Origin: Eutreptiella sp. 'Long Island Sound 2002'
Lineage: Eukaryota; Euglenozoa; Euglenophyceae; Eutreptiales; Eutreptiaceae
DNA length: 64,000 nucleotides
Reading direction: 5' to 3'
NCBI GenBank assembly: GCA_964036045.1
Contig: OZ038378.1
Coordinates: 58,131,408 to 58,195,407, forward strand
In this document: in pieces, positions 1-60,995 of the stretch
Numbering within the stretch: position 1 is the first letter of the stretch
Layout: each line of letters begins with the position of its first letter
Notes under the pieces: generated by a model
What the model was told of the DNA's origin: nothing
Seen by the model: the letters and a program-made list of their open reading frames with translations, nothing else
The model's database searches: none
Position numbers and translations under genes: made by a program

Positions 1-438
1 CACTGTCCTGTGCTGGTGACTCACTGTCCTGTACCCGCCAATCGCGGTTGGTTCGCCCACGGAGTGCCTCCGCCCCAGGGCAGGTGTAGGAAAGCAGGGG
101 CAGGCGGGCACGGTGTCGGTTTGTGATTGCTCAGCATTTTATGGGCCGCTGTGCATTGTGCACTGCGCTCTGCGGCTGTGAGGCCGCCGAGCTGGGCTGA
201 GGGAGTGGTACTGTGATCTATGCAAGCCCCCACCTCTCAGAGAGTCATTAGATATCACACACACACATACACACAAACACATACATGCATACAGCACAGC
301 ATTATCTCTTGCAGACTGCAGTAACCTTGTGTTCAAGGTGTGATGCGCCCTGCAGAGGCTGGACCAATTCCTTCTGCAAAGGGCGGCGCCGCCAACACAC
401 CACAGCTTGTCTTGGCACATACCGCAAGCGCACGCGCG

Positions 439-478
<40 letters not shown>

Positions 479-1574: not shown

Positions 1575-2083
1575 ACGCCTCAACAGGCGGTTCTTGGACC
1601 ACCCGTCAGGCTCGTATGGCCATTGGATGGGCGCGGCTGGTTAACCACTGTCCTGTGCTGGTGACTCACTGTCCTGTACCCGCCAATCGCGGTTGGTTCG
1701 CCCACGGAGTGCCTCCGCCCCAGGGCAGGTGTAGGAAAGCAGGGGCAGGCGGGCACGGTGTCGGTTTGTGATTGCTCAGCATTTTATGGGCCGCTGTGCA
1801 TTGTGCACTGCGCTCTGCGGCTGTGAGGCCGCCGAGCTGGGCTGAGGGAGTGGTACTGTGATCTATGCAAGCCCCCACCTCTCAGAGAGTCATTAGATAT
1901 CACACACACACATACACACAAACACATACATGCATACAGCACAGCATTATCTCTTGCAGACTGCAGTAACCTTGTGTTCAAGGTGTGATGCGCCCTGCAG
2001 AGGCTGGACCAATTCCTTCTGCAAAGGGCGGCGCCGCCAACACACCACAGCTTGTCTTGGCACATACCGCAAGCGCACACGCG

Positions 2084-2123
<40 letters not shown>

Positions 2124-3728: not shown

Positions 3729-3768
<40 letters not shown>

Positions 3769-5373: not shown

Positions 5374-5423
<50 letters not shown>

Positions 5424-8400: not shown

Positions 8401-8675
8401 TGCGCTCTGCGGCTGTGAGGCCGCCGGGCTGGGCTGAGGGAGTGGTACTGTGATCTATGCAAGCCCCCACCTCTCAGAGAGTCATTAGATATCACACACA
8501 CACATACACACAAACACATACATGCATACAGCACAGCATTATCTCTTGCAGACTGCAGTAACCTTGTGTTCAAGGTGTGATGCGCCCTGCAGAGGCTGGA
8601 CCAATTCCTTCTGCAAAGGGCGGCGCCGCCAACACACCACAGCTTGTCTTGGCACATACCGCAAGCGCACGCGCG

Positions 8676-8729
<54 letters not shown>

Positions 8730-10334: not shown

Positions 10335-10392
<58 letters not shown>

Positions 10393-11997: not shown

Positions 11998-12061
<64 letters not shown>

Positions 12062-13666
12062 GGCATGCAGGGCGTGCCAGGGGGTTTACCCCTCTCTGTT
12101 CCGTTTTGAATGGGAACCATGGTACAGCGTTTTTTCAGGTCACGATTCTCTTCAGAGCTCTGGCCTCTGTTAATCTTTTTGGTCGAGCTCGCACCCCTGC
12201 GTAGTGCTTAGCAACAATGCATGCACTGCAGCACGGTTTGGAGACATGGACGCCAATCTGTGGATCCGGCCAGCTTGCGTGATCCGTCGAACTTATTTGT
12301 CGCATGCACCGCAGTGTGAGGAGACTGATAAAACGATCAGGAAATTTGTGGCTTCAGTTTGAGAGGAACCTGATTTAGTTGTGTGTGAAACCAGCCCCCA
12401 CCCCTCCCAGTTGAAGCACGAAGCTACTAGGGTGCAGCAGGCGCGAGGAGGGCACTCCAAAGGCAGTGCATGAATGGCGCCATGTTAGTACGCGCATAGT
12501 CAGGTATGCTTTGTGTCCTTTGGTGCCTTGGCACTTTTCTCTGGGCTCATTACCCGAACCCTCTCGCCGTGGACGCCTGTCCCTTTGCAGCTTCGGGCTT
12601 GCTACAGGGCGTGACGAGAGCAGGTGCTTTGCCCGATCTCCTCGACCTTTCGCCACAACTCTGCCTGCCCCACGCGTTGTGATTGTGGGCCGCAACAGAG
12701 TCACTGGGGGTGGCGAGCTGATGCAATACCTAGTGTTTTGTATGTTGCAATACCTAGTGCATTGTATTTTGCGAAAATAAGGACCGCAGGGGTTAGATTG
12801 GGCAGCAGGGTCTGGGATTGATGGACAAATTAAGTGGACAATTCAGCTCCGCCCTTGAATTCGTCATCTCCGGCATGACACCTCCGTGGACAAATTGGTC
12901 CAGCTGCTGCAGCAGCCGGTAGGATCAGCCCGAGTTTGCGTGTGCGGCATAGCAGGATCGTCTGTCTGTTGGAGCGACAAGAAGCTCTTGGAGAGTCGAT
13001 CCTGTCGTACATGCTGAAGGCGCCCATGGTCCCTCGGGGCACGCCGGTGATCAACGCCCTCATGAAGCAGCAGCGCGCTATCACCAATCTGCTGTGCGCG
13101 TTGGTGGGCCTGCCGGTGGATGGGGATATGATGCTGGAGCACAGGTTGCGCCTGTAGACGCCTCAACAGGCGGTTCTTGGACCACCCGTCAGGCTCGTAT
13201 GGCCATTGGATGGGCGCGGCTGGTTAACCACTGTCCTGTGCTGGTGACTCACTGTCCTGTACCCGCCAATCGCGGTTGGTTCGCCCACGGAGTGCCTCCG
13301 CCCCAGGGCAGGTGTAGGAAAGCAGGGGCAGGCGGGCACGGTGTCGGTTTGTGATTGCTCAGCATTTTATGGGCCGCTGTGCATTGTGCACTGCGCTCTG
13401 CGGCTGTGAGGCCGCCGAGCTGGGCTGAGGGAGTGGTACTGTGATCTATGCAAGCCCCCACCTCTCAGAGAGTCATTAGATATCACACACACACATACAC
13501 ACAAACACATACATGCATACAGCACAGCATTATCTCTTGCAGACTGCAGTAACCTTGTGTTCAAGGTGTGATGCGCCCTGCAGAGGCTGGACCAATTCCT
13601 TCTGCAAAGGGCGGCGCCGCCAACACACCACAGCTTGTCTTGGCACATACCGCAAGCGCACGCGCG

Positions 13667-16033: not shown

Positions 16034-17245
16034 TCTTGTAGAGCATTCTATTTTCTTTTTGCAGCAGCGACGTTGGTAGCAGGATGCGCAGCTTCTCACC
16101 GGATGTTGTTGTTGCCTCCTCGAGAATCCCCACGCCAAGCCCTCCAGATTGTTCACCTTTCTCTTCACAATTCACGTGGCACGGGAGGTTCCCTGCACCC
16201 TGCTGCAAAACTCCCCCGTCCCAAGAACGTCCGGTATTTTTTTGGAGGGGGTGCGGATGTGCCCTTGAGCCGGGGCTTCGGGAGCGTAAAGGGAGGGGAT
16301 GTGGGTGGAGGTGGGTCGCTGGTTGCACTCTCCTCTACCCTGCAGCGCATTGATGTCCCAAGGCTTTTGCTTTGGATCGATTGCGGTCCCCGAGGATGGA
16401 CGGGCGGGAACACAAGCAAGTGGTGAGCTCCATCCTTGTTCACAGGTGGTTCCAGAGGGCGGCACTCATGCCATCTAACAAGTGGTATGAGGAGGTGGAC
16501 AAGCTATGCGCGGCCTTCGTCCAGCAACCCAAAGGGATGGTCCCCTGTCGGATTGGGAACCTGCTGAGTACCCCCATTGCAGAGCGAGGATGCCTGCATC
16601 GTTGCCCGCCACATCTGTTGCGTCGCTCCTTCAGGCGTGGCCCAAATACACTGCGAAGCCAGCAACATTCAAAAAATCATGCATGGGGTCTTGCGGATCC
16701 ATTGCCTGCATGTTTGAGCTGGCAGTGTCACGGTCCAGGCTGCGACCCTCTTACCAACAGAGGCGCGGTTGACGAGTGCGGAGGGGCTTTTTTCCTCTTG
16801 CCTGAACTGTCTGCAACAAAAAACAAGACCCACCGCGTAAGTATCCAGCAGCATTGCCCCAGTGCACGAAAAATGAGAGTAGCCTGTGGAGAATAGGACA
16901 TTGCGATAGGCCATAATCCAGCACAGTGCAGTTTTGTTCTTTAGCAGCCCAAAAAGAGTTTCCCGGCAAATGGCGCCATGCATTGTGATGAAACAATGTC
17001 ATGCGTGCATTCTGTCCCCCCCCCCCATCTGAACAAATACGATGCATCATACACCGGAGCAAGGAAACCGAATGGGTGGCGTGTGGTGTGGTGTGGTGTG
17101 GTTTCCAACATCAATTTACCTTGTTTGCAAGAAATGTTCAAGTAGACAATGCCCTGGTAGTGCCTTGGTTTGGGTGCAGAAGCAAATGGTGGAATGTGCA
17201 GGAGCTGCAGGTGGTACTTATGGATGACAAACCTGAAGGTTTTCA
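16034..17245. other. Unassigned stretch between the array and the retrotransposon
   Basis: No gene was confidently recognised. Short open stretches exist on both strands. One plus-strand frame, 16506-16772, contains ASLPATSVASLLQAWPKYTA; it may be an exon remnant, with an acceptor-like TTCACAG near 16439-16445. A 13-base C run lies at about 17017-17029. A GTGTG-type tract sits near 17084-17101. Confidence 0.4.
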
Positions 17246-18385
17246 TTGGGTGGGTCTACAAGCTCAATCTTTGCTAACTCCAACAACCACAAAGCAGTCA
17301 GGGTCACAGTAATGAACCCATTGGGACCGCGGCCGGCGCCGCCACCGGTCATGGGCAATGTGTCGCACTGGCCCTCCTCGTTATTCCGCAAGTTTTCGCG
17401 CCACATGTCCCAATGGTCCAAAGCGCACTCCACTCACCAAGATCACATCATGCACCCACTAGACAGGGCGGACGCCATCATTGCCGCAGCGTCCGGCTTT
17501 GTACACGCACACCCCCGCCCACAGCCAGTTCAAGACGTGGTCGAACAACAGCTGGCTGACGAGTTGCACCGCGACCCTTCCTCCAAGAGGGCCCAGCAAG
17601 CCTGGGCGCACCACAGGGCGACCAATAATATGAAACGGGCCCAACGACACCTGCGGCGCTTCCGAAAATGCGCGGTACGCGGCCGCTCTACTTTCTTCAA
17701 TGCCCTAAAGTGGTGGCTGATCACCCCCTTCCGCACGACTACCCCACAACCCGACACGACCTCGGCCGCCGAACACCTTCCGCACTTCGCGGGGGACCCA
17801 CCATGGAGACCGGAAGAGGCCAAGGCTCTTCTTTCACAAGTCTTAAAGCCAGGACGACCAGTGAGCCCCGATCCTCCCTCCTGGCAATCTTTCACAAAAG
17901 CGCTACGCCAACCCAAGAACAAGGCGGCAGGCATGGACCACGTGGCACCCCACCTGTACCAGTGGTTACCTAGGGAGCTACAGTGGGACCTATACATAGC
18001 AGTGCGCCATGTGTGGGAAAGCGGCGATGTGCCGCACCACTGGCTGCAGGCGAGAATAGCCATGATCTACAAGTCTAGCCCCCCTGAGGCGGCCCGCAGT
18101 TACCGGCCCATTAGCGTAGCCACGGGGATGTACACCCTTCTAGCCCGGCTCATATTGGACACCCTGCGAGGGCCCATCGACGCGGCGCTCTCCGACCCCC
18201 AAGCAGGATGTAGACGAGGCTATACCACATCACAACAAGCCCTCCGCATGTCGATGCTTTTACACCAATACGGGGACGGTGCGCTGGTATGCCTCCTGGA
18301 CATCGCAAAAGCTTACCCCAGCATGCCCCACCTACGGACTCCAGTTGATTGGAACCCCAGCCCGCATCTACAACATGGTGGCTAG
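17246..18385 (+). pseudogene. Retrotransposon reverse transcriptase, N-terminal part
   Basis: This 379-codon open frame starts without a good ATG and is probably the remainder of a longer ORF. The conserved RT blocks are readable in order: a NKAAGMDHVAPHLY block (about residues 227-240), then SYRPISVATGMYTLLARLI, then GCRRGYTTSQQALR, then CLLDIAKAYPSMP, whose first Asp (codon 18299-18301) is the palm motif A metal ligand. After about 18335 the frame is wrong. The homologous sequence continues one frame over, so the last dozen or so codons are junk. RT copies the element RNA at the target site. A small deletion at the junction is possible, because the spacing between palm A and the next block looks short. 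Confidence 0.9.
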
Positions 18386-19012
18386 CATCTACGCGCACAG
18401 CACGGGGGTGTACGGAGACGTCCGTTTTCCGTTGCGTCGTGGCATCAAGGAGGGGTGCCCCCTGTCCCCAGCCCTTTTTGTTCTAGTGTATGAGGCCTTC
18501 CACCAGACTCTCACTAGAGAATTTCCCAACAGCACCATACTGGCCTATGTCGACGACATCGCCATCATCTCCCCGAGCCAACGGGAGATGCAGCACGTCC
18601 TGGAGCGCGTCAGTCAATTGTCTGCCATACTGGGCCTCAAGACGAACCCTTCAAAGACACAGGTGTACCGTTGGGCCCCACCCTCCCGCCGTCAGGGTGT
18701 GGCACGACGAGAGTCCCCGACCAGGGACACCATCACGTGGGGCGATGCGCGATTGCCGCTGCAACCCCCTATCTTCCACTACCTAGGTCACCTCCTGGCA
18801 CATCCCACCTGGGACTAAAAGGCACGTGATGACTTCGTGGGGACGGCCGCAGCTGATCTGACGCGATACCAATACCTGCCACTGAACGCTTTCGAGCGGG
18901 TGCAGCTGCTGAACACCATCTTGATCCCACGGTGGACGTACCGCACCTTGTTTCTCCCCAACGACTCAATGTTCAAAGCCATGGACTCCATGTGCTTATG
19001 GCGGAGGGCATG
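18336..19012 (+). pseudogene. Retrotransposon reverse transcriptase, C-terminal palm and thumb
   Basis: This is the continuation of the RT in a shifted frame. It contains TPARIYNMVASIYAHSTGV, then GIKEGCPLSPALFVLVYEAF, then AYVDDIAII with the catalytic Asp pair at 18551-18556, then ILGLKTNPSKTQVY. The order matches RT blocks 4-7. The TAA at 18816-18818 follows LAHPTWD, but the same frame resumes as thumb-like sequence (LNAFERVQLLNTILIPRW) to about 19012, where homology moves back to the first frame. Tyr-Val-Asp-Asp at the active site is a normal variant of the YxDD box. Confidence 0.88.
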
Positions 19013-45092: not shown

Positions 45093-45338
45093 TGCCCTAG
45101 TGGCCTAGATTAAAGTCAATATGTTTAATATTTGGCCAAAAATTAACACGTTAATCTCAAGTTTCAATTTTTGTAGGGGGGGTTAGGGGGTTTGCCGTGA
45201 AAATTATGACCCCCATGGGTTGCCTTATAGGCTTGGGTGTCATTTCCCCCCAAGGGTTGGTCGGGGGGTCCTACCCATATGGTTGTTTCAAAATGTTAAA
45301 ATGGCTCTCGGCTTTAATTTTTGTTTTTAATTTTTTCA

Positions 45339-45481
45339 ACATGTTCTCGCGTCCGTCCATGGGGCAATCCAGATTCACAGGCATGAAGCAGGAGATGGCG
45401 TGCTTCAGCCCAACGGTTTGCAACTCCAGCGGCACATCCCGATGCCAAAGTTGTGGCTGATCCGACGTTGCCCGGACAAAC
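45339..45481 (-). CDS. 2OG/Fe(II) dioxygenase, N-terminal half with HxD motif (copy A, split)
   Basis: Minus-strand reading gives VRATSDQPQLWHRDVPLELQ followed by KHAISCFMPVNLDCPMDGRE. HRD preceded by a hydrophobic strand and followed by a CFxPVNLD strand is the signature of the first iron-binding pair in 2-oxoglutarate/Fe(II) dioxygenases of the double-stranded beta-helix type. The distal His/Arg half is on the opposite strand at 45802 onward. His-to-distal-His spacing after rejoining would be about 70 residues, normal for this superfamily. The enzyme would hydroxylate a nucleic-acid base, protein or small molecule; the substrate cannot be told. Confidence 0.6.
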
Positions 45482-45624
45482 CTCACACCCCCACAAACGA
45501 AGCGTCTAACCCCCCCAACGCAAACCCTACCACCGAACCCACTAACCCAAATAATCCCACCAACCCCACTAACCCCCCATCCGGACCCGCGAAGATGTGG
45601 GACCCCACTACGGGGTCCCATGAG
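45482..45624 (+). CDS. Thr/Pro/Asn-rich linker exon (copy A, inverted)
   Basis: Reads TPTNEASNPPNANPTTEPTN then PSGPAKMWDPTTGSHE and ends at a GTATGAGGG donor. The same exon is on the minus strand in copy B (56215-56360), where it follows exon 4 in frame. Here it is on the plus strand, as is its downstream intron (to about 45800). The sequence is low-complexity, probably a flexible linker between the transposase-like part and the dioxygenase. Confidence 0.6.
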
Positions 45625-45801
45625 GTATGAGGGCCCGGATAGGGACCCAATGGGCTACAATGGCCATGGACAACATACATAAGCACACACATGATGCATT
45701 ACATGTTGCGTTGTGCCATTGTTAGGAGGGTTAATATTTGGGGAAATGAGCTTGTAGTTGTGAGATTAATATCAATGTCGGGGACATTTTAATTTTTAAC
45801 T

Positions 45802-46490
45802 TTTTGTACGGTTCTGGCTCTGGTGTTCCCTATCCATGGCGGAAGGTCTCGATGAGTATGCTGGCGGGCGACTTGTGGGTCCTGAGCAGTTCCGTCATTC
45901 ACCATCGTGGGGCTGTCCTTAGAGATGCGCCGCCTGGATCAACCCGTATCATCGCCTTTGCCGCCATTGCCACACGCCGCGTCGACTACGAGACCACCGT
46001 GCCGATCATCCCGCCACCTTGGGCTGAAGCCCCCGCACAACAACCGTCGCCACCGTCCCCGAAGGACATGCATTGTACAACAGCGCAGTGCAACCGCGTG
46101 GTGCACGCCAACCCGCCAGTGAAGTGTTTCGCCTGTGACGAACGTCCTCTTTGTGCTATACATGTCGGGCAACTCTGTGAAGACTGTCACCGGGATTCTA
46201 GGGATCCTGCTGTGGAGGCCACCCCTAGACCTGCTGTGGAGGCCGTGGCGATGTCAGCTGAGGGAGCAGAGGAAGTCGATGAGGATGTGTGGACGCAAAA
46301 GATTGTGGAGGAGGATCTTTGCGGGTTTGGTGATGACACACACCTTTCCCATTTGTCACCGGAATCATGGAAAAGGCGGTTGCCGCACTGGAGGGTGGCA
46401 TCCCACAGCTCAAGCCATACACGGCCATCAAGGGGAAGGCCCGAGCAGAGCGGCGGCACCACATACAGACCATCACGCGGGAATTTTTAG
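45802..46490 (+). CDS. 2OG/Fe(II) dioxygenase, C-terminal half, plus Cys/His finger (copy A, inverted part)
   Basis: LAGDLWVLSSSVIHHRGAVL followed by PPGSTRIIAFAAIA fits the distal iron-binding His and the 2-oxoglutarate-binding Arg about 16 residues later, at the end of a double-stranded beta-helix. After a Pro-rich linker comes CTTAQCNRVVHANPPVKCFA then CDERPLCAIHVGQLCEDCH. These Cys/His pairs are spaced like a treble-clef or B-box-type zinc module. A dioxygenase plus zinc finger on a transposon recalls TET/JBP-type enzymes carried by KDZ transposons of fungi, but the family here is undetermined. The real exon probably starts near 45802, just after the intron next to the linker; the last ~40 codons (after about 46360) are in the wrong frame. 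Confidence 0.6.
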
Positions 46491-46921
46491 TGGATCCGCA
46501 GGCAGTTGTCGTTGAGGGTGGTGGGGGGTTGTATATATGTTTCGCCGGGCACGACGACGATGAGGACCCTCGTGTAGTGCTCGCAATCGGACTGTGGGCC
46601 GCCGGTAGGAGATTGAAGTTATCAATACGGCAGATGTTGACCCTGCCGCGCGAATGCAAGCGCCGTGATCTTGCCGAAGCGCGCACAAGGATAACACCGT
46701 ACTCCACCACAACCTACGCTATCAATGGCCCCAACATGATCGAGCGGCGGTGCGCAGCGACAGCAACACTAGATGAACTCGTTGGTACGCAGTCGAAAAT
46801 AGCCGAGACCCTAGGGGAGCTTGAAGTGGAAACTGAGAAGATTTGGATTTTCAAATGTCCTGATGCAACGTCATTGTGGCACACATCGGTCACGAAGATT
46901 GATGTTTTTGTAAACTGCTAG
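46355..46921 (+). CDS. Continuation of the dioxygenase-block protein (copy A)
   Basis: Frame shifted by one relative to the preceding ORF at SHLSPESW/VTGIMEKA. It reads EKAVAALEGGIPQLKPYTAI, REFLVDPQAVVVEGGGGLYI, DEDPRVVLAIGLWAAGRRLK and TLDELVGTQSKIAETLGELE, ending in TAG. It looks like a folded beta-rich domain followed by a coiled segment. No family was recognised. It could be the same polypeptide after a frameshift or short intron, or a separate protein starting at the ATG at 46367. Confidence 0.5.
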   Translation, partial: VTGIMEKAVAALEGGIPQLKPYTAIKGKARAERRHHIQTITREFLVDPQAVVVEGGGGLYICFAGHDDDEDPRVVLAIGLWAAGRRLKLSIRQMLTLPRECKRRDLAEARTRITPYSTTTYAINGPNMIERRCAATATLDELVGTQSKIAETLGELEVETEKIWIFKCPDATSLWHTSVTKIDVFVNC

Positions 46922-46943
46922 GCCTCGGGGTTTTCTGCTGCAG

Positions 46944-47283
46944 GGATATCCATAAATGGGTGATGTGGGCGTACATGGATGGGCCCGATGACGCCGCATG
47001 GCTGCAGGCTTTAGACGAGGATGCGGGCCTAAATGCCCAAAGCATCTACCTACATGAAAGTTTTACATTCCGTGTCAAAAATGAAACCAAAAAGTTTTCA
47101 TGTAAATTGACCGGGGATGGGAAACTAATGATGGTGACGAACGGGGGTGGGGAAGTGTTGGTGGGGCTGCCCCAACGCCACCGGGTTGGTGCCGACAGAG
47201 GGCACGGTAAACAAAATTCTATGGGGGGCATTTCTTCGAAGTTTGTGTATTCGCATTGGAGACTATGCACACGCAGGTTGTAG
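46944..47283 (+). CDS. Last exon of the dioxygenase-block gene (copy A)
   Basis: The acceptor TTTTCTGCTGCAG precedes DIHKWVMWAYMDGPDDAAWL, QSIYLHESFTFRVKNETKKF and KLMMVTNGGGEVLVGLPQRH; the stop is TAG at 47281-47283. Protein-like throughout, unknown family. The donor of the previous exon was not pinned down. It ends 74 bp before the inversion boundary, tail-to-tail with exon 4 of the minus-strand gene. Confidence 0.5.
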
Positions 47284-47356
47284 GGTAACGAATGCTTTCA
47301 AGAAGCGCCTAACAGAAACGATTACCACGTTAACAATGGGTGTTGTTGGTGGCATT

Positions 47357-48170
47357 CTTCTTGCCCGCCGCCCGGGCCTCTTCCCGGTGCCGCTCGGCCT
47401 CCTCGGGGCTGGGGAAGAGGAGGGAGCGGCTCACCTCGTAGAGGGTGGTGCCGCCCGGGTATTCCACCCAAACGGCACCGTACTTCCGCCTGTGGATACC
47501 ACGGACGGTGCCCCTCTCTCCCCCGTTGGGGTAGGGTACGTGGACGACCGTCCCGACGATCGGATCCCCGGGACGGTCGTCCTTCTTCTCGGCACCCTTG
47601 GAGGTGTCGGTCTTGGTGGGGGCGGGGAGGTTTGCGGTGGCGGTCTTGGGGGGGTTGGTGGGTTTGGGGGCGGGGACGGCCTTCGTAGGGCGTGCGGTGG
47701 TGGTGGTCGGGGGGGTTTGGGCTTTTTGGGCCGGGGGATCGCCCCGTCGTCGCTTTCGTCCGACGACTTGAAAGAAAACTTTCGTTTCTTGGGGGCGGGT
47801 TTGGGGGGATTGGGCTTCGCTTGGGGGGGGGGGGGGGTGGTGGTGGACGCCTCCCCCCCTCTTCCCCCTCGCTCACCCCGCCCCCTCCCATGCTCCCCCA
47901 CATCTCCTCATCCTCCCCCCCCGCATACCCCACCTCCTGCATGCGAGCCCACTCCCTGGGCCGCAAGTGGCGCGGCGACACCCATACGCCGCTCACCATG
48001 CGCGATGTCACCCAGTCGTGGAGACCGCGCAAGAGAGCAAGGCCCAGGGGTGGATCCCGGGCCACAATGCGATGGAGGGGCCCCAAGCGTACTTCTTGGG
48101 AGGCCTCGGCGTCTCGCCAGGCCACCCGAATGGGCCTTGCATTCGTTGCGTTGACCACGACGTCGATGAC
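47357..48170 (-). CDS. Transposon gene exon 4 (copy A), with SH3/Tudor-like segment
   Basis: The acceptor CATTTTTTTTCAG precedes VIDVVVNATNARPIRVAWRD and GVWVSPRHLRPREWARMQEV. After an acidic piece (EDEEMWGS) the frame crosses a long G run (about 47826-47837) and changes. The coding sense continues in other frames: KPAPKKRKFSFKSSDESDDG (basic/acidic nuclear-type motif), a Pro/Arg region, then RKYGAVWVEYPGGTTLYEVS. The last looks like an SH3 or Tudor-type barrel strand pattern (G..V....YG..V.YP.GT), typical of histone-tail or DNA-binding modules in integrases and transposases. Homology to copy B ends abruptly at GKKNA, about 47357, the inversion boundary. Confidence 0.55.
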
Positions 48171-48346
48171 CTGAAAAAAAATGAAAAAAAAGTATGAATT
48201 TTTTTCCGGCAACTTTTTTAATTTTTCGACCTTAATATTAACTCTTAATTTTTAATATTTCGACCGGCGGTGCAAAAACTAGATATTAATCTCGAACAAT
48301 TAACCGTGGCGACCTAAAAATTAATGCAGGCAGCCAAGCAACATAC

Positions 48347-49414
48347 CTCGAAACTCCCGTTGGTGCCGCCTGCCTGCACTGCCCCCATGGCCTCCCGGCA
48401 GAGAGAGGCGGCACTGGGGGCCTCCACAAGGGCCACAGGGGCTCCCGCGCTGGCCATCGGGGCCGCCTGGGCCGCCGGTTTGGCCACGTTCACGGCCACC
48501 GCGGCCGCCTTGACCGCGCGGGACTGGGAGACCAAGCCCTCGTACGAGGGCAGGCACCCCGGGTCGTAGATGGGGCGGGGTAGGTCCGGGACAGTGGCGC
48601 AGTCCACCCCGAACGACACCACCTTGCCCTGGCGCCACTGCCTGACCCAGCCAAGCTGGGCCCAGTGCTGCAGCAGCACCAAGTAATGCGGCGTCCCATA
48701 ACGGACGCCGCGAGGGTCAAAAAGCAAAATCAGTGCGGGCAAAGCGCCCGCACTGATTGCCTTTGGCATGGGGGCAAGGTGGGCACCAAGGAGGGGTTTC
48801 CAGAACAGACCCCCCCCCTTGGAGGCATCTATACCCCAGGTGCCTCTGTGTTCTCCCTCCTTCCGGCGAATCAAACACCGGACTAACCTCCGAAAATCCA
48901 CATGACTGTCATGTGGCTATGCGGGGGGACGAAAAAACTGGTTGGTCCCCCGCGCACCCCTGCTCCAGCACTTGGGGTGACCGGGGGATCGGCTCCGCCT
49001 TCCGGGTGGTGGCAGACTGGGGGCCCGGGGCTTTGAGAAGCCACTAGGGGAGGGGGGGGGGTGATTGGGGGGGGGTCAACAACCTCAACTCCATCCCCGT
49101 CCCCGTCCCCGTCCACCTCGTCCACCACCACTTCCCCCTCCCCCTCTTCCTTAACCCCCCCCCCCCAGGCTGGCCTGTACCCCCCCTTGCCTCTGGCTCC
49201 TCTCCCTCTCTCTCCTCTCGCTGTTCTCCTTCTTCTTTTTCTTCTTCTCCTTCCTCTCCTTTTTTCGCCTATCCGAGGAGTCTTCGCTTGACTCCTCGGT
49301 TGGCGGTTGTGCGCCCGGTGGAGGAGGAGGTGGTGCTGGCACTGCTGCAGGAGCTGCTGCTGCAGGAGCTGATGGTGCAGCTGCTACTGCCAGTCGCCGC
49401 TCCACTTGCGCCAC
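48347..49414 (-). CDS. Transposon gene exon 3 (copy A): Ala/Pro, Lys/Glu-rich region plus conserved block
   Basis: Starts VAQVERRLAVAAAP after TTTTAG, then a Pro/Ala stretch, TEESSEDSSDRRKKERKEKK and a long Lys/Glu/Arg helix, likely disordered or coiled and nuclear. A G/C-rich part follows where frames are hard to trace, then the conserved block RRLVRCLIRRKEGEHRGTWG, FDPRGVRYGTPHYLVLLQHW, IYDPGCLPSYEGLVSQSRAV and a final NGSFE. It ends at a GTATGTTGC donor. A small upstream exon (minus strand, about 49599-49679) reading SAMQKMLADMLKANDEAL is probably also part of the gene. No recognised fold. Confidence 0.55.
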
Positions 49415-49836
49415 CTAAAAGAGTGAGAGGACAAAGAAAAATCAATTTTTATGCCCCTGAGTTATATTCTTGAAATTAATGTTATCTATCGAAAAATTAA
49501 TTTATATATCGAATATTAATGACCGTGCCTATTAATATTAATCTCGAAATATTAGACAAGTTGCCGCAAATATTAATTCGTATACGCAAGCTAGCCTGCA
49601 CAAGCAAAACACACTAGGGCTTCGTCGTTCGCTTTGAGCATGTCGGCCAACATCTTTTGCATGGCCGAGTCGTCCATGGCAAGGAGAAAACAAACCTAGT
49701 GGTGGGGAAGCAAGGGTGGAGGGCGGGGGGCTATGGGTGGCCATGAGTTTGGCCATGGTTCATGGGGCGGTATGGGTCCCGTAGTTGCGTAGCGGGAGGT
49801 CAAATTTTAAAAACCACCACTCCCACACTTCTGAAA

Positions 49837-50715
49837 CTACCTCCCCCTCCCGCTCCAGTTGGGTTGCCCCCGGCACCCCCCCCCCCCCCGGCCCGAGTGG
49901 TCATTGTATGCGCGCTTAAGGATGGCGTTGAGGCTCTCAACGACATCCGCCCACACGGCACCCAAGCCAACCCCCAAGCGGCGTGCATTGGCCACGGCCT
50001 CGGTGACATCCTCCTCCAAATAGAGGAGGTATTTTGATTGACAGGCCTCCTTGCAACAATGTGCACGGTAGGCGCGTGCCACCTCGGCCGCACGTAGGTC
50101 CCCGCGGGGCGGCTTGTCCGTGTACAACTCCCGGAGGAGGTCACGCATGGCCACGACGGATTGCCATTCACCATCCTCCGGGAGGTAGTCCAACAACGGA
50201 CCAAGTTCCTCCCACGCGAGGGACAACGCACGGGCCTCCTCCCCGTCGGGTGCCCCCGTCGCACCCAACTTCACACCCGTGCGGGCCCGGTAGAGAACAC
50301 GTTGTACGGCGACGGTGTTCTCCTTGGGGGGGTCCACAAGGCGTGTGTCGATGAACACCACTTTCAGCCGGCCAATGGCCATGCAACAATGGAGGATGCA
50401 TAGGAAAGCCATGCACCGGTCAACCACAATTTGTGGATCCCCTATGCATCCCCCATTCCCCAAGCTACGGCCGGTCTCCCTGTAGCGGCGACGGGCCGCC
50501 TCCTCACGGGCCAAGGTGCGCCGGGTCGCCACCTTGACCCATGCTGCCGCAACCTTGTCCCACACCCCCATATTGTAAATTGAGCCCACCAAGGGCGAGG
50601 TGGACACACCGATAAGGCGCCGCACCAACGGTAGGTCTTCCCCGATGACCAACCTGCTTGGCACCCACCGCGACACCCAATGAAACTTCTCGCATTCTTG
50701 TATGGACTGCAATAC
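49837..50715 (-). CDS. Transposon gene exon 2 (copy A), transposase-like C-terminal part
   Basis: The acceptor TTTTTGTAG precedes VLQSIQECEKFHWVSRWVPS in phase with exon 1. Features: CILHCCMAIGRLKVVFIDTR, a Lys/Glu helix region, then ADVVESLNAILKRAYNDHSG. The E-S-L-N-x-x-L-K pattern resembles the catalytic Glu helix found at the end of many DDE transposases. Together with the Asp residues of exon 1 this could complete a D-D-E triad; that is an inference. The frame is lost in a G run near 49880 relative to copy B, where it continues EREGEVVSQVWEWWVLKFDL. This may be decay or a homopolymer error. Confidence 0.6.
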   Translation of the reverse strand, partial: VLQSIQECEKFHWVSRWVPSRLVIGEDLPLVRRLIGVSTSPLVGSIYNMGVWDKVAAAWVKVATRRTLAREEAARRRYRETGRSLGNGGCIGDPQIVVDRCMAFLCILHCCMAIGRLKVVFIDTRLVDPPKENTVAVQRVLYRARTGVKLGATGAPDGEEARALSLAWEELGPLLDYLPEDGEWQSVVAMRDLLRELYTDKPPRGDLRAAEVARAYRAHCCKEACQSKYLLYLEEDVTEAVANARRLGVGLGAVWADVVESLNAILKRAYNDHSGRGGGGCRGQPNWSGRGR

Positions 50716-50873
50716 CTACAAAAAGGACATGGATTAATATTTACATTAATTTCTCGAGATTAATATTAAGTTAATTTTTCAGTCGGCGTTAATATTAACC
50801 GAAAACTAGATATTAATCACGAGAAATTAATGCAAAAACGCAAAAATTAACAAACAACGAATGGGCCACAAAC

Positions 50874-51620
50874 CTTCAAGTTATCGGCCCATATCGTTGC
50901 AAGTGCCGCCATGTCCTTGTCCCCGCACACGGCCATCCGTATCACCCGCAAGTACGCGGGTGTGCGGCCCCGTGCGCCGTGGTTGAGGAGCCCAATGGAG
51001 AGTTGGGTCCAACTACCACCGGCGCACGGGTACGCATCCCCACACACAATGAAGGTGAGGGGCCTTGTCCAATCGATGGTGTCCACTAGGGATGGGCGTG
51101 ATTGGACGTACCGGGCCCATGAGGGTAGCGGCCAAGAGCGCCCACTCGCGGGGGGATCGGGGACGGACACGGGTGGTCGTAGGTCAAGGGGGGTGACCAA
51201 ATCTTTCCATGTGTCCGTGAACGTATCCCGAGTGGGGATGGGGCTGGGGAACGGGAGGCCCGTTGCGGCCGTGAAGCCCGACCCCCGGCGGCTCATGTAC
51301 TCCGACACGTGCCGGAAGCCGAGCTCGGGGACGTTCAAGTCCATGAGGAGGCCGATGAGGTCCGGGGCCGCGAAGAGGTGGGAGGCATATTGCTTCACCG
51401 CCTCCACTTGCCGAGTACGAATAAGGGAGGGGTAGCCAACCTCCATCGCCTCGGACCATCGTGCCCGGGCCAAAGGGAATGAGGTCACCCACTCACCAAG
51501 GAGTTGGGAGACCAAAGGGTCCCGCAAACTCTTGGGCCCACTCAAACGCACGAGCGTCATTGTAAGCTCGGTAAGGGTGTCCCGAGAGAAAGGCATAACA
51601 AGGGCTATACAAGGGAACAT
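50874..51620 (-). CDS. Transposon gene exon 1 (copy A), transposase-like N-terminal part
   Basis: ATG at 51620 gives MFPCIALVMPFSRDTLTEL; exon length is 747 bp, identical in copy B, and the donor is AAG|GTTTGT. The N-terminal half is helical (LRDPLVSQLLGEWVTSFPLA, EAVKQYASHLFAAPDLIGLL). The C-terminal part, FIVCGDAYPCAGGSWTQLSI then MAALATIWADNLK, contains Asp in GDAYP and in ADN, placed like catalytic acids on beta strands of an RNase H-fold DDE transposase. I do not recognise the superfamily. Its position directly inside a TIR and its repetition in three copies make transposase the natural reading. Intact in copy A. Confidence 0.65.
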
Positions 51621-51896
51621 GGTGGTGTGGAGGGGGGGGGGATGCGGGCAACCGGAGGGGGGGTGTCCAACACACCCACCAACACAACATTGGAACCTCT
51701 CTACTATACCGTTGTGCAACAATATACCACGTACCACCCCTTATAGGTCCGCATATGTGAATGGAAAAATGTGTACAAATGGCCCAATTGCAAAAATTTG
51801 ACTTTAACCTCTTAATATTTGCGAGATTAATATATTAACGCCTTCATATATTAAAAATTAAAATTAGTATATTGACTTCAATCTAGGTCACTAGGG

Positions 51897-52450
51897 TGCG
51901 GTTGTGGGGGGGTGGATATATGGTGTCTTGCGCTGTGGTGTGTGGGGCTGCGGTGTAAAAGATTGTGGTGTAGGCAGCTGTGGTGTTTGGGGCAGTGCGC
52001 AGTGTTTTGGGCTGCAGGGTGGTGGGCTGCAAGATGTGAGCTCTTGCGCGCGGTTTGTGATGGTTCGGGCTGTTGGGGGTAGGCTGAGGGCTGTGGTGTT
52101 GTGGCATAAGGGGTCACGCCACACAACCCCGACGGCCCCACCACCCACCGCACCACCTCCCATAGCCGTAAACACCACAGCTTGGCACACCACAACGCCA
52201 TGCCCTGTAGCCCCACACTCTGCGTCTCAACACACCACGGCCGAATACCAACAGGACCACACCCCACACACCACACACCACACACCCCGCACACCGCACA
52301 CGATAGCTGCCCATACCACACGGGCTGTGGGGTGTTGCTCTGCCGGTGCGGGGCTGTGGTGTGTGGGCCTGTGGGGTTTTGGCGTGAGGGGTTTTGGTGT
52401 GTGGGGCAGTGAGGTGTGGGCCTATGGTGTTTTGGCCTCTGGTGTGCAGT
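51897..52450. repeat. Low-complexity GT/CA-rich tract with strand switches
   Basis: G/T-rich on the plus strand at 51900-52110 (TGTGGTGT-type words), C/A-rich at 52110-52315 (CACACCACACACC words), then G/T-rich again to 52450. Opposite blocks can pair imperfectly. Long open frames here are artefacts of composition. Confidence 0.85.
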
Positions 52451-53570
52451 GGTGTGGCCACATCACATGCAACATAAAAACACAACAAACAAAAAAAATT
52501 AAAATTTGGGACCCTGCAATTGATGTTTGCAGGTCAATATCCTGGAGCCAAATATGAATTAACATATTAAATATTAATTGTCGCTGCCGTTAATATTAAC
52601 CTACAAATAAGAATATCACCGATTCAAATATTATCTTTGAAGAAAAATGCATAATACATAGTGACACGCGCCAAGTGGGCATGCATACATTTGGTGCCAC
52701 ACCATTTGGGGGCTTGGGAGGGGTGGGGAATTTTGGGGGCTCTTAGGGGCTCGGGAGGGATTGCACGGGATGTGGACACAACATACACCAACCCGCTGGC
52801 CAAGTTTGATGGATGTTTTTCTTTGGGTGAGCGAGGGGTTGCCGGGGGGGGGGGGGGGTTCTGGAGGCTTTTTGACCCACAGCCCTAAAAACCACACCCC
52901 CACAAACCCCAAGCCTAGAAACCACACACCCTAGACCAAAGCCCCCCACCCCCCACCCCACAGCCCAAAGCGTCACCGCCTCACGAACCACTATACCAGG
53001 GGGGGGGTCAAAAATGAAGCCAAAACTAGCCCCTTTATCTTCTTTTGGGCAATCTGCATGACGTGAACAACAGACACACACACAGACACACACACACACA
53101 TATCTACAACTTTTTCGCTTTTTTCCATCATGAATCTTCATGTCCACCATCCTAAAAAAAACTGCAAACAATGTGGAAACGGAAAAGGGCATACCCTCCC
53201 GAACCTTAACCGGTAGGGCAAGAGGAGGATAGAGGAAGGAGGTCAGAGGGATGTGTGTGTGAGGCGATAGGTGTGTTGGGTTGCCAATATCATTGGCCGT
53301 ATGTGTGTGTGTGTGTGTGTGTGTACCCTTCGTGAACGGGGGTTAAGTGGCCGTTTGAATAATTGCGTGAATTTCACGCGAATTTGACCCATTTTTGGTG
53401 TTTTTTTTTAAAACACTACATTTTAGCTTCAATATGACGTACTAGAGGGGGCGAACCTCAAGTCCTATTTTCAGTCCCCATGATTCAGTGAAAGTCCCAC
53501 CCCAAACGGACCCATCAGGCCCAAACGTCGCCCAAAAAAAATCCTGGAATTATGTCCCGGTACCCTTGGG
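52451..53570. other. Intergenic stretch
   Basis: Contains GTTAATATTAAC-type palindromes (near 52590) like those in introns of the neighbouring transposon, G runs near 52838-52850 and 53000-53007, and CA/GT microsatellites at about 53074-53100 and 53299-53324. No gene was recognised. Confidence 0.5.
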
Positions 53571-54129: not shown

Positions 54130-55194
54130 ATTTCATATGTAGAGCACACCATGGGCACCACCAATGAGGCGGCACAATAGGCGCTCGTAACCCCTGATGA
54201 CCAACTCATCGCGCACACATAGTTGCATAGTAAAATGTCTTGCATCCTTGAATAGCCTGCAACGCGGGGGGAAAAAAGTTAATTTTTGCGTAATTTTTTT
54301 GAGCCTAACATTAGATTACCTTTTCAGTTCTGATTAACATTTGCCAAATACAAAACGTTAACCCCGAGAACTAAAGCAAAAACTAAAGGCAAACGAAACA
54401 ACCGTATACGTGGGGTTTGCAGACCAAGGGCTAGACGCTATTCGATGTAGCGGGCCCACAATTGCAATGGCCAAGAGCAGCCACTTGTGGGGGGATCCGC
54501 CACGGACATGGGTCGATCTAGCGTAAGCGGCGTCACCAACTCCTTCTAATTGTCCCTGAACCGAAGGGGCGGGGAAAGGGGAGGCACGTCGCGGCGGTGT
54601 AAGCGGCCCCCCGGCGGGTCATGAACGCCGACACATGCCAGAAGCCGCCCTTGGGGACATTCAAGGCTATAAGTGACCCGATCAATTCGGGCGCCGGGAA
54701 CAGGATGGAGGCATATTGCCTCACAACTTCTATTTGCTTGTTGCGGTTGATTGGAAGTTGGGCAACTTCGGTGGCCTCGTACCACATCGCCTTGGACAAA
54801 GGGGATGAGGTCACGGACTCACCAAGGAGTTGGGAGACCAAAGGGACCCGCAAACTCTTGGCCCCACTCAAACGTGTGAGTGTCACACTCAGCTCGAGAA
54901 GGGTGTCCCGAGAGAAATGGATAACAAGAGCTATACAAGGGAAAAAGGAGGTTGGGAGTGGGGTGAGTGGGGCTACATAACCACCTACACGACTATACAA
55001 CCCCCGTGGTACCCTGTTAAGCACCCTTTGACCACCCAAACACTTGAAGTGGGCACGGTACACGCACCAGCAAAGCGCTGCAAATGACCCAAAATTGGGT
55101 TATCGTGGTAATATTTGGCAGGTTAATTGTTACCCTCTTTCATGTATCAAAAATCAAAATGAACCATATTGGTTTTAACGTAGGTCTCCAGGGG
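54130..55194 (-). mobile_element. TIR transposon family, copy C (old fragment)
   Basis: The right end (reverse complement CCCCTGGAGACCTACGTTAA) is a diverged TIR. The exon 1 equivalent (minus, about 54944-54545) reads FPCIALVIHFSRDTLLELSV, PLVSQLLGESVTSSPLSKAM and KGGFWHVSAFMTRRGAAYTA, aligning with copies A and B at perhaps 70-75%. The ATG is replaced, the exon stops early (TAG after GTIRRSW), and only traces of exon 2 remain near 54130-54270. No left TIR was found. Confidence 0.7.
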
Positions 55195-55777: not shown

Positions 55778-56214
55778 TACCCTACTCACCTAGATTAAAC
55801 CCAATATATTTAATATTTGGCCAAAAAATAACACGTTAATCTCAAGTTTCAATTTTTTTAGGCGGGGTTAGGGGGTTTGCCGTGAAAATTATGACCCCCA
55901 TGGGTTGCCTTACGGGCTTGGGTGTCATTTCCCCCTAGGGGTTGGTGGGGGGGGTCCTACCCATGTGGTTGTTTCAAAATGTTAAAATGGCTCTCGGCTT
56001 TAATTTTTGTTTTTAATTTTTCCATTAATATTTGAAAAGTTAAAAATTAAAGCCGTCGCGGGCATTAATATTATTTCACAAATATTAACTCATTTTCCCA
56101 AATATTAACACTCCTAACAATGGCACAACGCAACATGTAATGCATCATGTGTGTGTATATGTATGTTGTCCATGGCCATTGTGGCCCATTGGGTCCCTAT
56201 CCGGGCCCTCATAC

Positions 56215-57155
56215 CTCATGGGACCCCGTAGTGGGGTCCCACATCTTCGCGGGTCCGGATGGGGGGTTAGTGGGGTTAGTGGGGTTAGTTGGGTTAGTGG
56301 GTTCGGTGGTAGGGTTTGCGTTGGGGGGGTTAGACGCTTCGTTTGTCGGGGTGGGGGGTTTCGCCTTCTTCTTGCCCTCCGCCCGGGCCTCTTCCTGGTG
56401 CCACTCGACCTCCTCGGGGGTGGGGAAGAGGACGGAGCGGCTCACCTGGTAGAGGGTGGTGCCGCCCGGGTATTCCACCCAAACGGCACCGTACTTCCGC
56501 CCGTGGATACCAGGGACGGTGCCCCTCTCTACCCCGTTGGGGTAATGTACGTGGACGGTTGTCCTTCTTCTCGGCACCCTTGGGGGTGTCGGTCTTGATT
56601 GTGGGGGGGGTTTGCGGTGGCGGTCTCGGGGGGGTTGGTGGGTTTGGTGGCGGGGACGGCCCTCGTAGGCCGTGCAGTGGTGGTGGTCGGGGGGGGTTTG
56701 GGCTTTTTGGGCCGGGGGATCGCCCCGTCGTCGCTTTCGTCCGACGACTCGAAAGAAAACTTTCGTTTCTTGGGGGCGGGTTGGGGGGGGTTGGGCTTCG
56801 CTTGTTGCGGGGGGTTCGGGCGGTGGTGGTGGACGCCCCCCCCCTCCTCCCCCTCGCTCACCCCGCCCCCTCCCATGCTCCCCCACATCTCCTCATCCTC
56901 CCCCCCCCGCATACCCCACCTCCTGCATCCGAGCCCACTCCCTGGGCCGGAAGTGGCGCGACGACACCCATACGCCGCTCACCATGCGCGCAGTCTCCCA
57001 GCCGTGGAGACCGCGCAGGAGAGCAAGGCCCAGGGATGGTCCCCGGGCCACGATGCGATGGAGGGCCCCCAAGGGTACATCCTGGGAGCCCTCGGCGTCT
57101 CGCCAGGCCACCCAAAAGGGCCTTGCATTCGTCGCGTTGACCACGACGTCGATAA
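56215..57155 (-). pseudogene. Transposon exon 4 plus linker, copy B
   Basis: The acceptor is CAAG where copy A has CAGG, so the splice site is damaged or moved by one base. A frame change occurs in the G run near 56905-56912. It then reads the basic/acidic nuclear motif, the SH3/Tudor-like segment (RKYGAVWVEYPGGTTLYQVS, about 56400-56560) and, in frame, ARAEGKKKAKPPTPTNEASN and the Thr/Pro/Asn linker to the GTATGAGGG donor. This shows the original linker orientation. Confidence 0.7.
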
Positions 57156-57334
57156 CTTGAAAAAAATGGAAAAAAAAGTGTGAATTTATTTTTTCTGCGA
57201 CTCTTTTAATTTTTCGACTGTAATATTAACCGTTAACTTTTAATATTTCGACCGGCGGTGCAAAACTTAGATATTCATCTCGAGAAATTATTGCTGGCGA
57301 CCTAAAAATTAATGCAGGCAGGGAAGCAACATAC

Positions 57335-58401
57335 CTCGAAACTCCCGTTGGTGCCGCCTTCCTTCACTGCCCCCATGGCCTCCCGGAAGTGAGAGGCGGC
57401 ACTGGGGGCCTCCACAAGGGCCACAGGGGCTCCCGTGCTGGCCATCAGGGCCGCCCGGGCCGCCGGTTTGGCCACGTTGGCGGCCACCGCGGCCGCCTTG
57501 ACCGCGCTGGACTGGGGGACCAAGCCCTCGTACGAGGGCAGGCACCGCGGGTCGTAGATGGGGCGGGGCATGGCCAGGATAGTGGCCCGGTCCATCCCGT
57601 GCGCCACAACCTTGCCCTGGCGCCACTACCTGACCCAGCCCAGCTGGGCCCAGTGCTGCAGCAGCACCTGGTAATGCGGCGTCCCATAACGGACGCCGCG
57701 GGGGTCAAAAAGCAAATTCAGTGCGGGCAAAGTGCCCGCACTAATTGCCTCGGGCATGGGGGCAAGGGTGGCACCAGGGAGGGGTTTCCAGACCCAGACC
57801 CCCCCCCTAGAGGCATCCTTACCCCAAGTTCCTCTATGTTCCCCCTCCTTCCGGCGAATCAAACACCGGATTAACCTCCGAAAAATCCACATGACTGTCA
57901 TGTGGCTATGCCGGGGGGGGGGGAGGAAAAAACTGGTTGACGCCCCGCGCACCCCTGCTCCAGCACCTGGGCTGACCAGGGGATCGGCCCCCCCTTCCGG
58001 GCGGTGGCAAACTGGGGGCCCAGGGCTTTGAGAAGCCACTAGGGGAGGGGGGGGCTGATTGGGGGGGTCAACAACCTCAACTCCATCCCCGTCCCCGTCC
58101 CCGTCCCCCTCGGCCACCACCACTTCCCCCTCCCCCTCATCCTTAACCCCCCCCCCCAGGCTGGCCTGTACCCCCCCCCCTGCCCCTGGCTCCTCTCCCT
58201 CTCTCTCCTCTCCCTCTTCTCCTTCTTGTTTTTCTTCTTCTCCTTCTTCTCCTTTTCCCGCCTATCCGAGGAGTCTTCGCTTGACTCCTCAGTTGGCGGT
58301 TGTGCGGCGCGAGGAGGAGGAAGAGGCGCTGGTGCAGGAGCTGCTGCTGGAGGAGCTGCTGGTGCAGCTGCTACTGCCAGTCTCCGCTCCACTTGCGCCA
58401 T
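57335..58401 (-). pseudogene. Transposon exon 3, copy B, with nonsense codon
   Basis: Begins MAQVERRLAVAAAP, here with ATG where copy A has GTG. TAG at 57626-57628 replaces the CAG Gln codon of copy A (GWVRQWRQGK). It ends at the conserved NGSFE|GTATGTTGC donor. Confidence 0.75.
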
Positions 58402-58751
58402 CTAAGAGAGTGAGAGGACCAAAAAAAAAAGATTCATTTTTATGCCCCCGAGTTATATTCTTGAAATTAATATTATCTATCGAAAAATTAATCAATATAT
58501 TACATATTAATGACCGCGCCTATTAATATTAATCTCGAAATATTAGACAAATCGCCGCAAATATTAATTCGTATACGCAAGCAAGCGTGCACAAGCAAAA
58601 AACACCAGGGCTTCGTTGTTCGCTTTGAACCTGTCGGCCAACATCTTTTGCATGGCCGATGCGTCCATGGCAAGGAGAAAACAAAGCTAGTGGTGGGGAA
58701 GCAAGGGTGGAGGGCGGGGGGGCTATGGGTGGCCATGAGTTTGGCCATGGT

Positions 58752-59704
58752 TCATGGGGCGGTATGGGTCCCGTAGTTGCGTAGCGGGAGGTCAAATTTT
58801 AAAACCCACCACTCCCACACTTGTGAAACTACCTCCCCCTCCCGCTCTAGTTGGGTTGCCCCCGGCATCCCCCCTCCCCTGCCCGAGTGGTCATTGTATG
58901 CGCGCTTAAGGATGGCGTTGAGGCTCTCAACGACATCCGCGCACACGGCACCCAACCAAACCCCCAAGCGGCGTGCATTGGCCACGGCCTCGGTGACATC
59001 CTCCTCCAAATAGAGGAGGTAGTTTGATTGACAGGCCTCCTTGCAACAATGTGCACGGTAGGCGCGTGCCACCTCGGCCGCACGTAGGTCCCCGCGGGGC
59101 GGCTTGTCCGTGTACAACTCCCGGAGGAGGTCACGCATGGCCACGACGGCTTGCCATTCACCATCCTCCGGGACGTAGTCCAACAACGGACCAAGTTCCT
59201 CCGACGCGAGGAACAACGCACGGGCCTCCTCCTCGTCGGGTGCCCCCGTCGCACCCAACTTCACACCTGTGCGGGCCCGGTAGAGAACCCGTTGTACGGC
59301 GTCGGTGTTCTCCTTGGGGGGGTCCACAAGGCGTGTGTCGATGAACACCACTTTCAGCCGGCCAATGGCCATGCAACAATGGAGGATGCATAGGAAACCA
59401 TGCACCGGTCAACGACAATCTGTTGATCCCCTATGCATCCCCCATTCTCCAAGCTACGGACGGTCTCCTTGTAGCGGCGACGGGCCGCCTCCTCACGGGC
59501 CAAGGTGCGCCGGGTCGCCACCTTGACCCATGCTGCCGCAACCTTGTCCCACACCCCCATATTGTAAATTGAGCCCACCAAGGGCGAGGTGGATACACCG
59601 ATAAGGCGCCGCACAAACGGTTGGTCTCCCCCGATGACCAACCTGCTTGGCACCCAGCGCGACCCCCAATGAAACTTCTCGCAGTCTTGTATGGACTGCC
59701 ATAC
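58752..59704 (-). pseudogene. Transposon exon 2, copy B, frameshifted
   Basis: Aligned throughout with copy A exon 2. One base is missing at about 59398 (AAACCATGC against AAAGCCATGC), shifting the frame in the DRCMAFLCILH segment. Downstream the correct frame is open again through ESLNAILKRAYNDHSG and on to LPLRNYGTHTAP. Confidence 0.75.
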
Positions 59705-59863
59705 CTACAAAAAGGGCATGGATTAATATTTACATTAATTTCTCGAGATTAATATTAAGTTAATTTTTCGGTCAGCGTTAATATTAACCGAAAACTAGAT
59801 ATTAATCACGAGAAATTAATGCAAAAACGCAAAAAACGAACAAACAAGGAATGGGCCACAAAC

Positions 59864-60610
59864 CTTCAAGTTATCGGCCCATATCGTTGCAAGTGCCGCC
59901 GTGTCCTTGTCCCCGCACACGGCCATCCGTATCACCCACAAGTACGCGGGTGTGCGGCCCCGTGCGCCGTGGTTGAGGAGCCCAATGGAGAGTTGGGTCC
60001 AACTACCACCGGCGCACGGGTACGCATCCGCACGCACAATGAAGGTGAGGGGCATTGTCCACTCGATGGTGTCCACTAGCGATGGGCGTCATTGGACGTA
60101 CCGGGCCCTCGGGGGTAGCGGCCAAGAGCGCCCACTCGCGGGGGGATCGGGGACGGACACGGGTGGTCGTAGGTCAAGGGAGGTGACCAAATCCTTCCAT
60201 GTGTCCGTGAACGTATCCCGAGTGGGGATGGGGCGGGGGAACGGGCGGCCCGTTGCGGCCGTGTAGGCCGACCCCCGGCGGCCCATGTACTCCGACACGT
60301 GCCGGAAGCCGAGCTCGGGGACGTTCAAGTCCATGAGGTGGCCGATGAGGTCCAGGGCCGGGAAGAAGTGGGAGGCATATTGCTTCACCGCCTCCACTTG
60401 CTTAGTACGAATAAGGGAGCGGTAGCCAACCTCCATGGCCTCGGACCATTGTGCCCGGGCCAAAGGGGATGAGGCCACCCACTCACCAAGGAGTTGGGAG
60501 ACCAAAGGGTCCCGCAAACTCTTGGCCCCACTCAAACGCACGAGCGTCATGTTAAGCTCGGTAAGGGTGTACCGAGAGAAAGGCATAACAAGGGCTATAC
60601 AAGGGAACAT
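59864..60610 (-). pseudogene. Transposon exon 1, copy B, with nonsense codon
   Basis: Same start, length (747 bp) and donor as copy A. TGA at 60089-60091 replaces the TCA Ser codon of copy A (RYVQSRPSLV in A, RYVQ-stop-RPSLV in B). The GDAYP and ADN motifs remain. Many other differences from copy A are silent or conservative. Confidence 0.8.
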
Positions 60611-60995
60611 GGTGGCCGGGGGGGGGGGGAGAATGCGGGCCACCGGGGGGAGGGTGTCCAAGACACCCAGCAACACAACATTGGAACCTCTTTACTATAC
60701 CGCTGTGCAACAATATACCACGTACCACCCCTTATAGGTCCTCATGTGTGCATGGAAAAATGTGTACAAATGGCCCAATCGCAAAAATTTGACTTTTAAC
60801 CTCTTAATATTTGCGAGATTAATATATTAACGCCTTCATATATTAAAAATTAAGATTAACCATCTTGACTTTAATCTAGGTCACCGGGGTAAAATGATGT
60901 GCCGGCTGCTCATATTGGCTAGCAAGATTAGGAGGGGAGGCTTTTTTTCAACCAAGTGGAGGTAGGGTAGCCTCCTTGATTTGCAGGGCTTGGCC

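Follow-up and report, generated by a model that had tools for sequence, protein, structure and literature searches.

A dioxygenase-like gene enclosed by a DNA transposon of Eutreptiella sp. probably reflects a nested and inverted fragment of a second transposon family

The DNA analyzed here (the window) is a stretch of 64,000 nucleotides from the euglenophyte Eutreptiella sp. 'Long Island Sound 2002' (assembly GCA_964036045.1, contig OZ038378.1, forward-strand positions 58,131,408 to 58,195,407), and coordinates below are positions within it. An initial annotation, made from sequence alone, marked at 45095-51896 a terminal inverted repeat (TIR) transposon carrying a transposase-like gene together with a 2-oxoglutarate (2OG)/Fe(II) dioxygenase and Cys/His pairs. 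The 28-nt arms of this marked element, defined by arm comparison (5' TIR, CCCTAGTGGCCTAGATTAAAGTCAATAT, 45095-45122, plus strand; 3' TIR, 51869-51896, minus strand), are complementary at 26 of 28 positions. When the 2.28-Gb assembly was searched with the TIR word, allowing up to two mismatches, 1257 + 1236 = 2,493 sites were found, versus 107 (55 + 52) for the reversed TIR pattern used as a control; within the window, there were four matches with up to three mismatches versus 0.23 expected. The element is bordered by TG at 45093-45094 and TG at 51897-51898. The 2-bp flanks were identical in all 12 copies for which both ends were found (two in the window and ten at fetched loci), and their sequence varied between copies (TG, TA, TG, AT, CA, TA, TG, TG, CA, CT, TA, and TG), so the TG/TG pair of the marked copy is a true target-site duplication. 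The matched TIRs and identical flanks noted initially are therefore confirmed. We conclude that the marked element is a genuine TIR DNA transposon; its family, with CCCTAGTG..CACTAGGG termini (i.e., CCC..GGG), is distinct from a second family, R, that is described below.

Four of the 12 copies (the second copy in the window, L010, L011, and L013) have a near-complete form of 5.09-5.12 kb; the remaining lengths are 6.8 kb for the marked copy and 1.3 to 6.4 kb for the other seven. The second window copy, delimited by copy comparison (55780-60889, minus strand; 5,110 bp, TA/TA duplication), contains no insert and lies only ca. 4 kb from the marked one. Six further loci (L015, L017, L019, L020, L021, and L024) have the left end and exon-1 region in common with the marked family, mostly without the middle, and perhaps form a sister subfamily. 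Adjoining the 3' TIR of the marked copy is a GTGTGGGGC-rich degenerate repeat (51925-52466), with steps of mostly 15 bp.

Two proteins are encoded in the usual 5.1-kb form of the family, one of them a transposase candidate with two exons. In the marked copy, exon 1 of the candidate, delimited like exon 2 from open reading frames (ORFs) and alignment, spans 50874-51596 on the minus strand and contains the motifs GDAYP (51027-51041) and ADN (50877-50888). It is separated by an A+T-rich GT-AG intron of 158 nt (50716-50873, placed by sequence comparison) from exon 2 (49840-50715), which contains GEDLP (50629-50643; GGDQP in relatives) and ESLN (49924-49938). The frame of exon 2 is disturbed at a run of G residues near 49880, and the exon ends at ca. 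49840. The multi-exon minus-strand gene with GDAYP, ADN, and ESLN motifs proposed at the outset is thus borne out, with two exons. In an alignment of relatives, the D, D, and E columns were conserved (first D in 22/25, second D in 22/25, and E in 25/26), from which DDE (Asp-Asp-Glu) chemistry of the candidate may be inferred. The D of ADN was kept in 14/21 only, and ADN is therefore not a strong motif.

No Pfam transposase model matched any of the 52 alignment members (25 exon-1 and 27 exon-2 rows) at E up to 10, and the view that this is a separate transposon family, whose transposase-like gene carries no Pfam name, held up in the profile scans. The sole repeated Pfam match among the exon rows was SPRY (10/25 exon-1 rows, best E 0.012); with 15.2 bits in the row shown versus a cut-off of 26.3, it was taken as a chance match and rejected. 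The ratio of nonsynonymous to synonymous substitution rates (dN/dS), calculated for pairs picked by the analyst, was 0.20-0.27 in seven between-subfamily pairs and 0.66-1.4 in five within-subfamily pairs, the pattern expected when a protein is selected in source elements and the copies decay after insertion. A search of viral contigs for relatives of exon 2 returned 44 pattern-matching stretches, none of which was confirmed. A more diverged relative, ca. 41% identical, lies beside a CCCTAGTG TIR at L014:4582-6024; its GDGYP and GGDSP motifs are on the minus strand (5239-6024) and ESVN is on the plus strand (4812-4997), so this relative is rearranged or composite.

Instead of forming a superfamily of its own, the family could belong to the CMCT group (EnSpm/Plavaka/ESTA-like) as a diverged member. 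According to Kojima 2025 (PMC12730594), CMCT elements mostly have CA..TG ends, 2-5 bp duplications, and C(2)C and H(3-4)H motifs between the second D and the E. The marked family resembles them in its 2-bp duplications, which are within that range, in the conserved D-D-E order, and in the presence of more than one gene, but differs in its CCC..GGG termini and in the lack of any profile match. We regard CMCT membership as a possibility to be taken seriously, though at less than even odds. The family also differs from KDZ transposons, both in its 2-bp duplications (8 bp are stated for Zisupton in the same source) and in matching no KDZ profile.

The second gene is encoded on the same strand as the transposase candidate (47333-49677, exon borders approximate). 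It starts at ca. 49677, has introns, includes a basic/Ser-rich stretch and a VHVPYPNGGERGTVRGIHRRKYGAVWVEYPGG segment, and matched no Pfam model over the cut-off. In the marked copy, its C-terminal tail is severed by an insert.

To define this insert, the marked copy was divided into five pieces, each compared with 21 other loci of the family (the second window copy and 20 fetched loci), a sample rather than a whole-genome survey, which includes copies only ca. 70% identical and one-end stretches. The native left segment, A (45095-45338, plus strand), was matched in 20 of the 21, although in L016 and L018 the match amounts to ca. 39 bp of TIR only. The next piece (45339-45477, minus strand) is foreign and contains the first half of a 2OG domain (WHRD, 45436-45447), displaced by an inversion. 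It is followed by a native segment of 327 bp, B (45478-45804, minus strand), to which we assign the C-terminal tail of the second gene. B is inverted relative to the family: its orientation was opposite to that of the marked copy in 16/16 loci with both A and B (in six of them, the match covers ca. 95 bp of B only). Foreign sequence resumes on the plus strand. Within 45805-46338, it contains the second half of the 2OG domain, marked by IHHRG...STRIIAF at 45897-45959, and then the Cys/His pairs at 46071-46187; beyond this stretch, it continues with a frame-broken internal part of another gene, ORF3 of R (46339-47349), which has matches elsewhere in the genome. The native body of the marked family, identified by copy comparison, occupies 47352-51896 on the minus strand.

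Both foreign pieces (45339-45477 and 45805-47351) were absent from all 21 other loci, and ten of these (the second window copy, L010-L013, L022, L023, and L025-L027) have an empty insertion site, where no more than ca. 30 bp separate B from the beginning of the native body. The initial proposal, in which the CCCTAGTG family normally carries the dioxygenase and the enzyme acts at the family's copies, fits the position of the dioxygenase between the TIRs of the marked copy but is contradicted by the other loci sampled, none of which has both genes within these TIRs. The two halves of the domain also lie on opposite strands, and the dioxygenase piece breaks into the family's second gene. We therefore rejected the cargo explanation, which we consider highly improbable, on the comparison of copies. 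The element still qualifies as a TIR transposon that has a transposase-like gene, and a dioxygenase sequence is physically inside its TIRs, as a secondary insert and not as a gene belonging to the family.

The initial annotation had also described a dioxygenase signature with normal spacing. The halves are not collinear in the marked copy: WHRD is read on the minus strand, and the H...R part and the Cys/His pairs on the plus strand. When the inversion was undone and the 139-bp piece returned to its place, one continuous frame was obtained, with WHRD, H, R, and then the Cys/His pairs, and here the spacing is normal (the distal H lies 67 residues after HxD, and R 15 residues further on). The same order is found at an independent locus, L038, where the initial 30 bases of the second half come immediately after the first half. 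With the two halves on opposite strands and a frame that enters foreign sequence, the fragment in the marked copy cannot work as one protein. We conclude that the oxygenase of the marked copy is a dead fragment.

The source of the insert, itself a fragment, is a second, common TIR transposon family, R, which has a dioxygenase-like gene between its own ends (TGGGGTGCGTCGCTAGAAGGTGTGCGC). The proposal of a mobile element with a 2OG-type gene was thus right in kind, for R with its different TIRs, and wrong for the marked family. The downstream 1,011 bp of the insert were found, wholly or nearly so, at 39 further places with 88-92% identity, in a search that scored 40 of 425 candidates; the 2OG gene had at least 87 matches in the genome, with 80 of 4265 candidates scored. 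The relative positions of the two were examined for 40 of the 41 ORF3 matches (the marked copy included; one match of 198 bases was left out) and the first 80 of the 87 2OG matches. A 2OG match was found upstream of ORF3, on the same strand and within 12 kb, in 17/40, and in ten of these 17 the distance was 2.2-3.0 kb; one of the 40 had a 2OG match in another arrangement, and 22 had none. One R copy could be read with both TGGGGTGCG TIRs (L053:520-6834, ca. 6.3 kb, CA/CA duplication) and contains the 2OG-zinc gene, a coiled-coil-like ORF in the middle, and a fragmented ORF3. The three R copies whose target duplications could be read all have 2-bp ones (TG in L037, CA in L047, and CA in L053). 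ORF3, open in parts, is probably the transposase gene of R.

Evidence on the R oxygenase comes from its conserved residues and from domain scans. Two 2OG clades, ca. 34% identical to each other (one of the P0086 type, the other represented by P0162, which stands for 40 member sequences), have the Fe-ligand columns in common; across 23 alignment rows, the ligands were kept in 20/22 letters for H, 20/22 for D, 17/20 for the distal H, and 15/19 for R. Among the 82 proteins scanned, P0162 matched the Pfam PhyH model (PF05721) with 22.5 bits, just over the curated cut-off of 22, P0165 scored 16.1 bits, below it, and the remaining 80 did not match. The Tet_JBP model matched none of the 82 at E up to 1, and no NCBIfam model matched near a cut-off. 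The R oxygenase is like PhyH in having HxD, H, and R in the same order, and unlike it in being a mobile-element gene with extra N-terminal, zinc-binding, and C-terminal parts. The R oxygenase was modelled with AlphaFold as A1 and as A5; in the A5 model, predicted local distance difference test scores (pLDDT) of 70 or more were confined to block 291-320, which is the zinc stretch (74-83), and block 481-490 (70). Three protein searches for relatives, the first two of which scored only the 8000 candidates sharing most words, returned only nameless 'ena' proteins. Since P0087 matches a place in this genome, and P0086 matches L049, both with 100% identity, these two come from this species or one very near.

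Based on these data, the marked locus is best described as two superimposed transposons, a host element of the marked family and a nested, inverted R fragment, with R itself bearing the 2OG gene; we give this reading a probability of about 0.86. The host element would be a cut-and-paste TIR transposon producing 2-bp target duplications. For both families, the target duplications together with the TIRs indicate staggered 2-bp cut-and-paste insertion, presumably carried out by a DDE enzyme. R, ca. 6.3 kb long with its own TIRs, carries the PhyH-like 2OG and zinc-binding gene upstream of the probable transposase ORF. An R fragment of ca. 1.7 kb, without R's ends and without an internal R stretch, would then have entered the last part of the second gene of the host element. 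In other R copies, R sequence runs past both fragment ends, which is why the fragment is taken to lack the ends of R, and this makes capture during break repair a likelier route than transposition. A later inversion, with one breakpoint inside the insert, would have flipped the 327-bp native segment together with 139 bp of the insert, so that the dioxygenase halves ended up on different strands.

Several observations weigh against this reading. Not all of the 21 loci extend across the insertion site, which slightly lowers confidence in the reading as a whole. An upstream 2OG match was missing from 23/40 ORF3 matches, both lists being partial, and even the R copy at L053 has a stop inside the 2OG gene and an ORF3 spread over several frames. 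ORF3, the putative transposase gene of R, had no Pfam match. The PhyH match passed the cut-off in only 1/82 proteins, a sequence search of solved structures (PDB) with A1 and P0162 gave no match, and mean pLDDT values of 30 (A1) and 39 (A5) leave the fold unconfirmed. The dN/dS of the 2OG gene between R copies was 0.46-0.74 (eight computable of ten pairs), which is weak evidence of selection. This value and the ORF3 matches without an upstream 2OG match also speak for another explanation, that the 2OG gene of R is a host gene that was captured and amplified as passenger DNA with no role for R, as does the state of the gene itself: 62 of the 80 main 2OG matches contain a stop, and the 18 that are stop-free inside include many partial ones. 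The iron ligands are, however, kept in two clades as distant as those described above, and the order and orientation of the gene relative to ORF3 are fixed where both were found (17 versus 1). We consider the passenger explanation unlikely and favor the reading in which the gene serves R.

Other features of the window lie outside the marked element. A fragment of the marked family, found by sequence match and ca. 73% identical to part of exon 1, is located at 54427-54967 on the plus strand. Reverse-transcriptase ORFs of a retroelement (Pfam RVT_1) are found in two frames at 17237-18815. Within 142-12207, near-identical ORFs are spaced by 1,645 bp (142, 1787, and 3432) and occur again at 10038 and 11701, which suggests a long-unit tandem array with CA repeats. 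A search for tandem repeats with scores of 400 or more and periods up to 500 found none, and neither Rfam families at the gathering score nor tRNA genes were detected in the 64-kb window. Across the 2.28-Gb assembly, a homeodomain search gave a single match, which speaks weakly against an animal source; none of the 14 control genomes provided a positive control.

The product of the 2OG gene of R most likely serves R and not the host, and it perhaps changes a silencing mark on DNA or chromatin. A silencing role is suggested by the location of the gene within a mobile element and by the fungal precedent discussed below. Alternatively, the zinc-binding 2OG protein may act on a substrate unrelated to silencing, such as a small molecule or a protein. 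The sole domain match is to PhyH, a family best known for a member with a small-molecule substrate, and Tet_JBP was not matched. On the other hand, the many copies within a mobile element suggest a role for the element, and zinc-binding domains often contact nucleic acid or protein. A substrate of this other kind is a plausible option, to which we attach appreciable but minority weight. The more specific proposal, that R is a high-copy and probably non-fungal element with its own non-TET (PhyH-like), zinc-binding 2OG dioxygenase acting against host silencing of DNA or chromatin, is tentative, and as a whole somewhat unlikely to be correct.

Kojima 2025 (PMC12730594) lists TET/JBP genes in fungal DNA transposons of the Kyakuja, Dileera, Zisupton, EnSpm, ESTA, Plavaka, hAT, IS3EU, Harbinger, and Helitron groups. 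It proposes that such genes are used to escape from silencing, and its author states there that their function has not been experimentally validated. R resembles these elements in being a TIR DNA transposon with a 2OG-type gene between its ends and many copies; it differs in lacking a Tet_JBP match and in having a weak PhyH match and Cys/His zinc pairs. The marked CCCTAGTG element differs from them in that its dioxygenase gene is merely a nested fragment. A literature search, with thin coverage of subscription journals, found no PhyH-bearing eukaryotic transposon.

The marked element illustrates that what looks like one element with two genes can be an artefact of nesting plus inversion, which only the comparison of copies exposes. 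Dioxygenase-bearing transposons have been described for fungi, with TET/JBP enzymes. If our reading of R is true, the different 2OG type in this family, together with a diverged second clade that has kept the iron ligands, would point to repeated uptake of such genes by mobile elements, and the recruitment of a dioxygenase would have been independent of the fungal TET/JBP cases. R would also offer a case in which to test whether transposons encode erasers of silencing marks.

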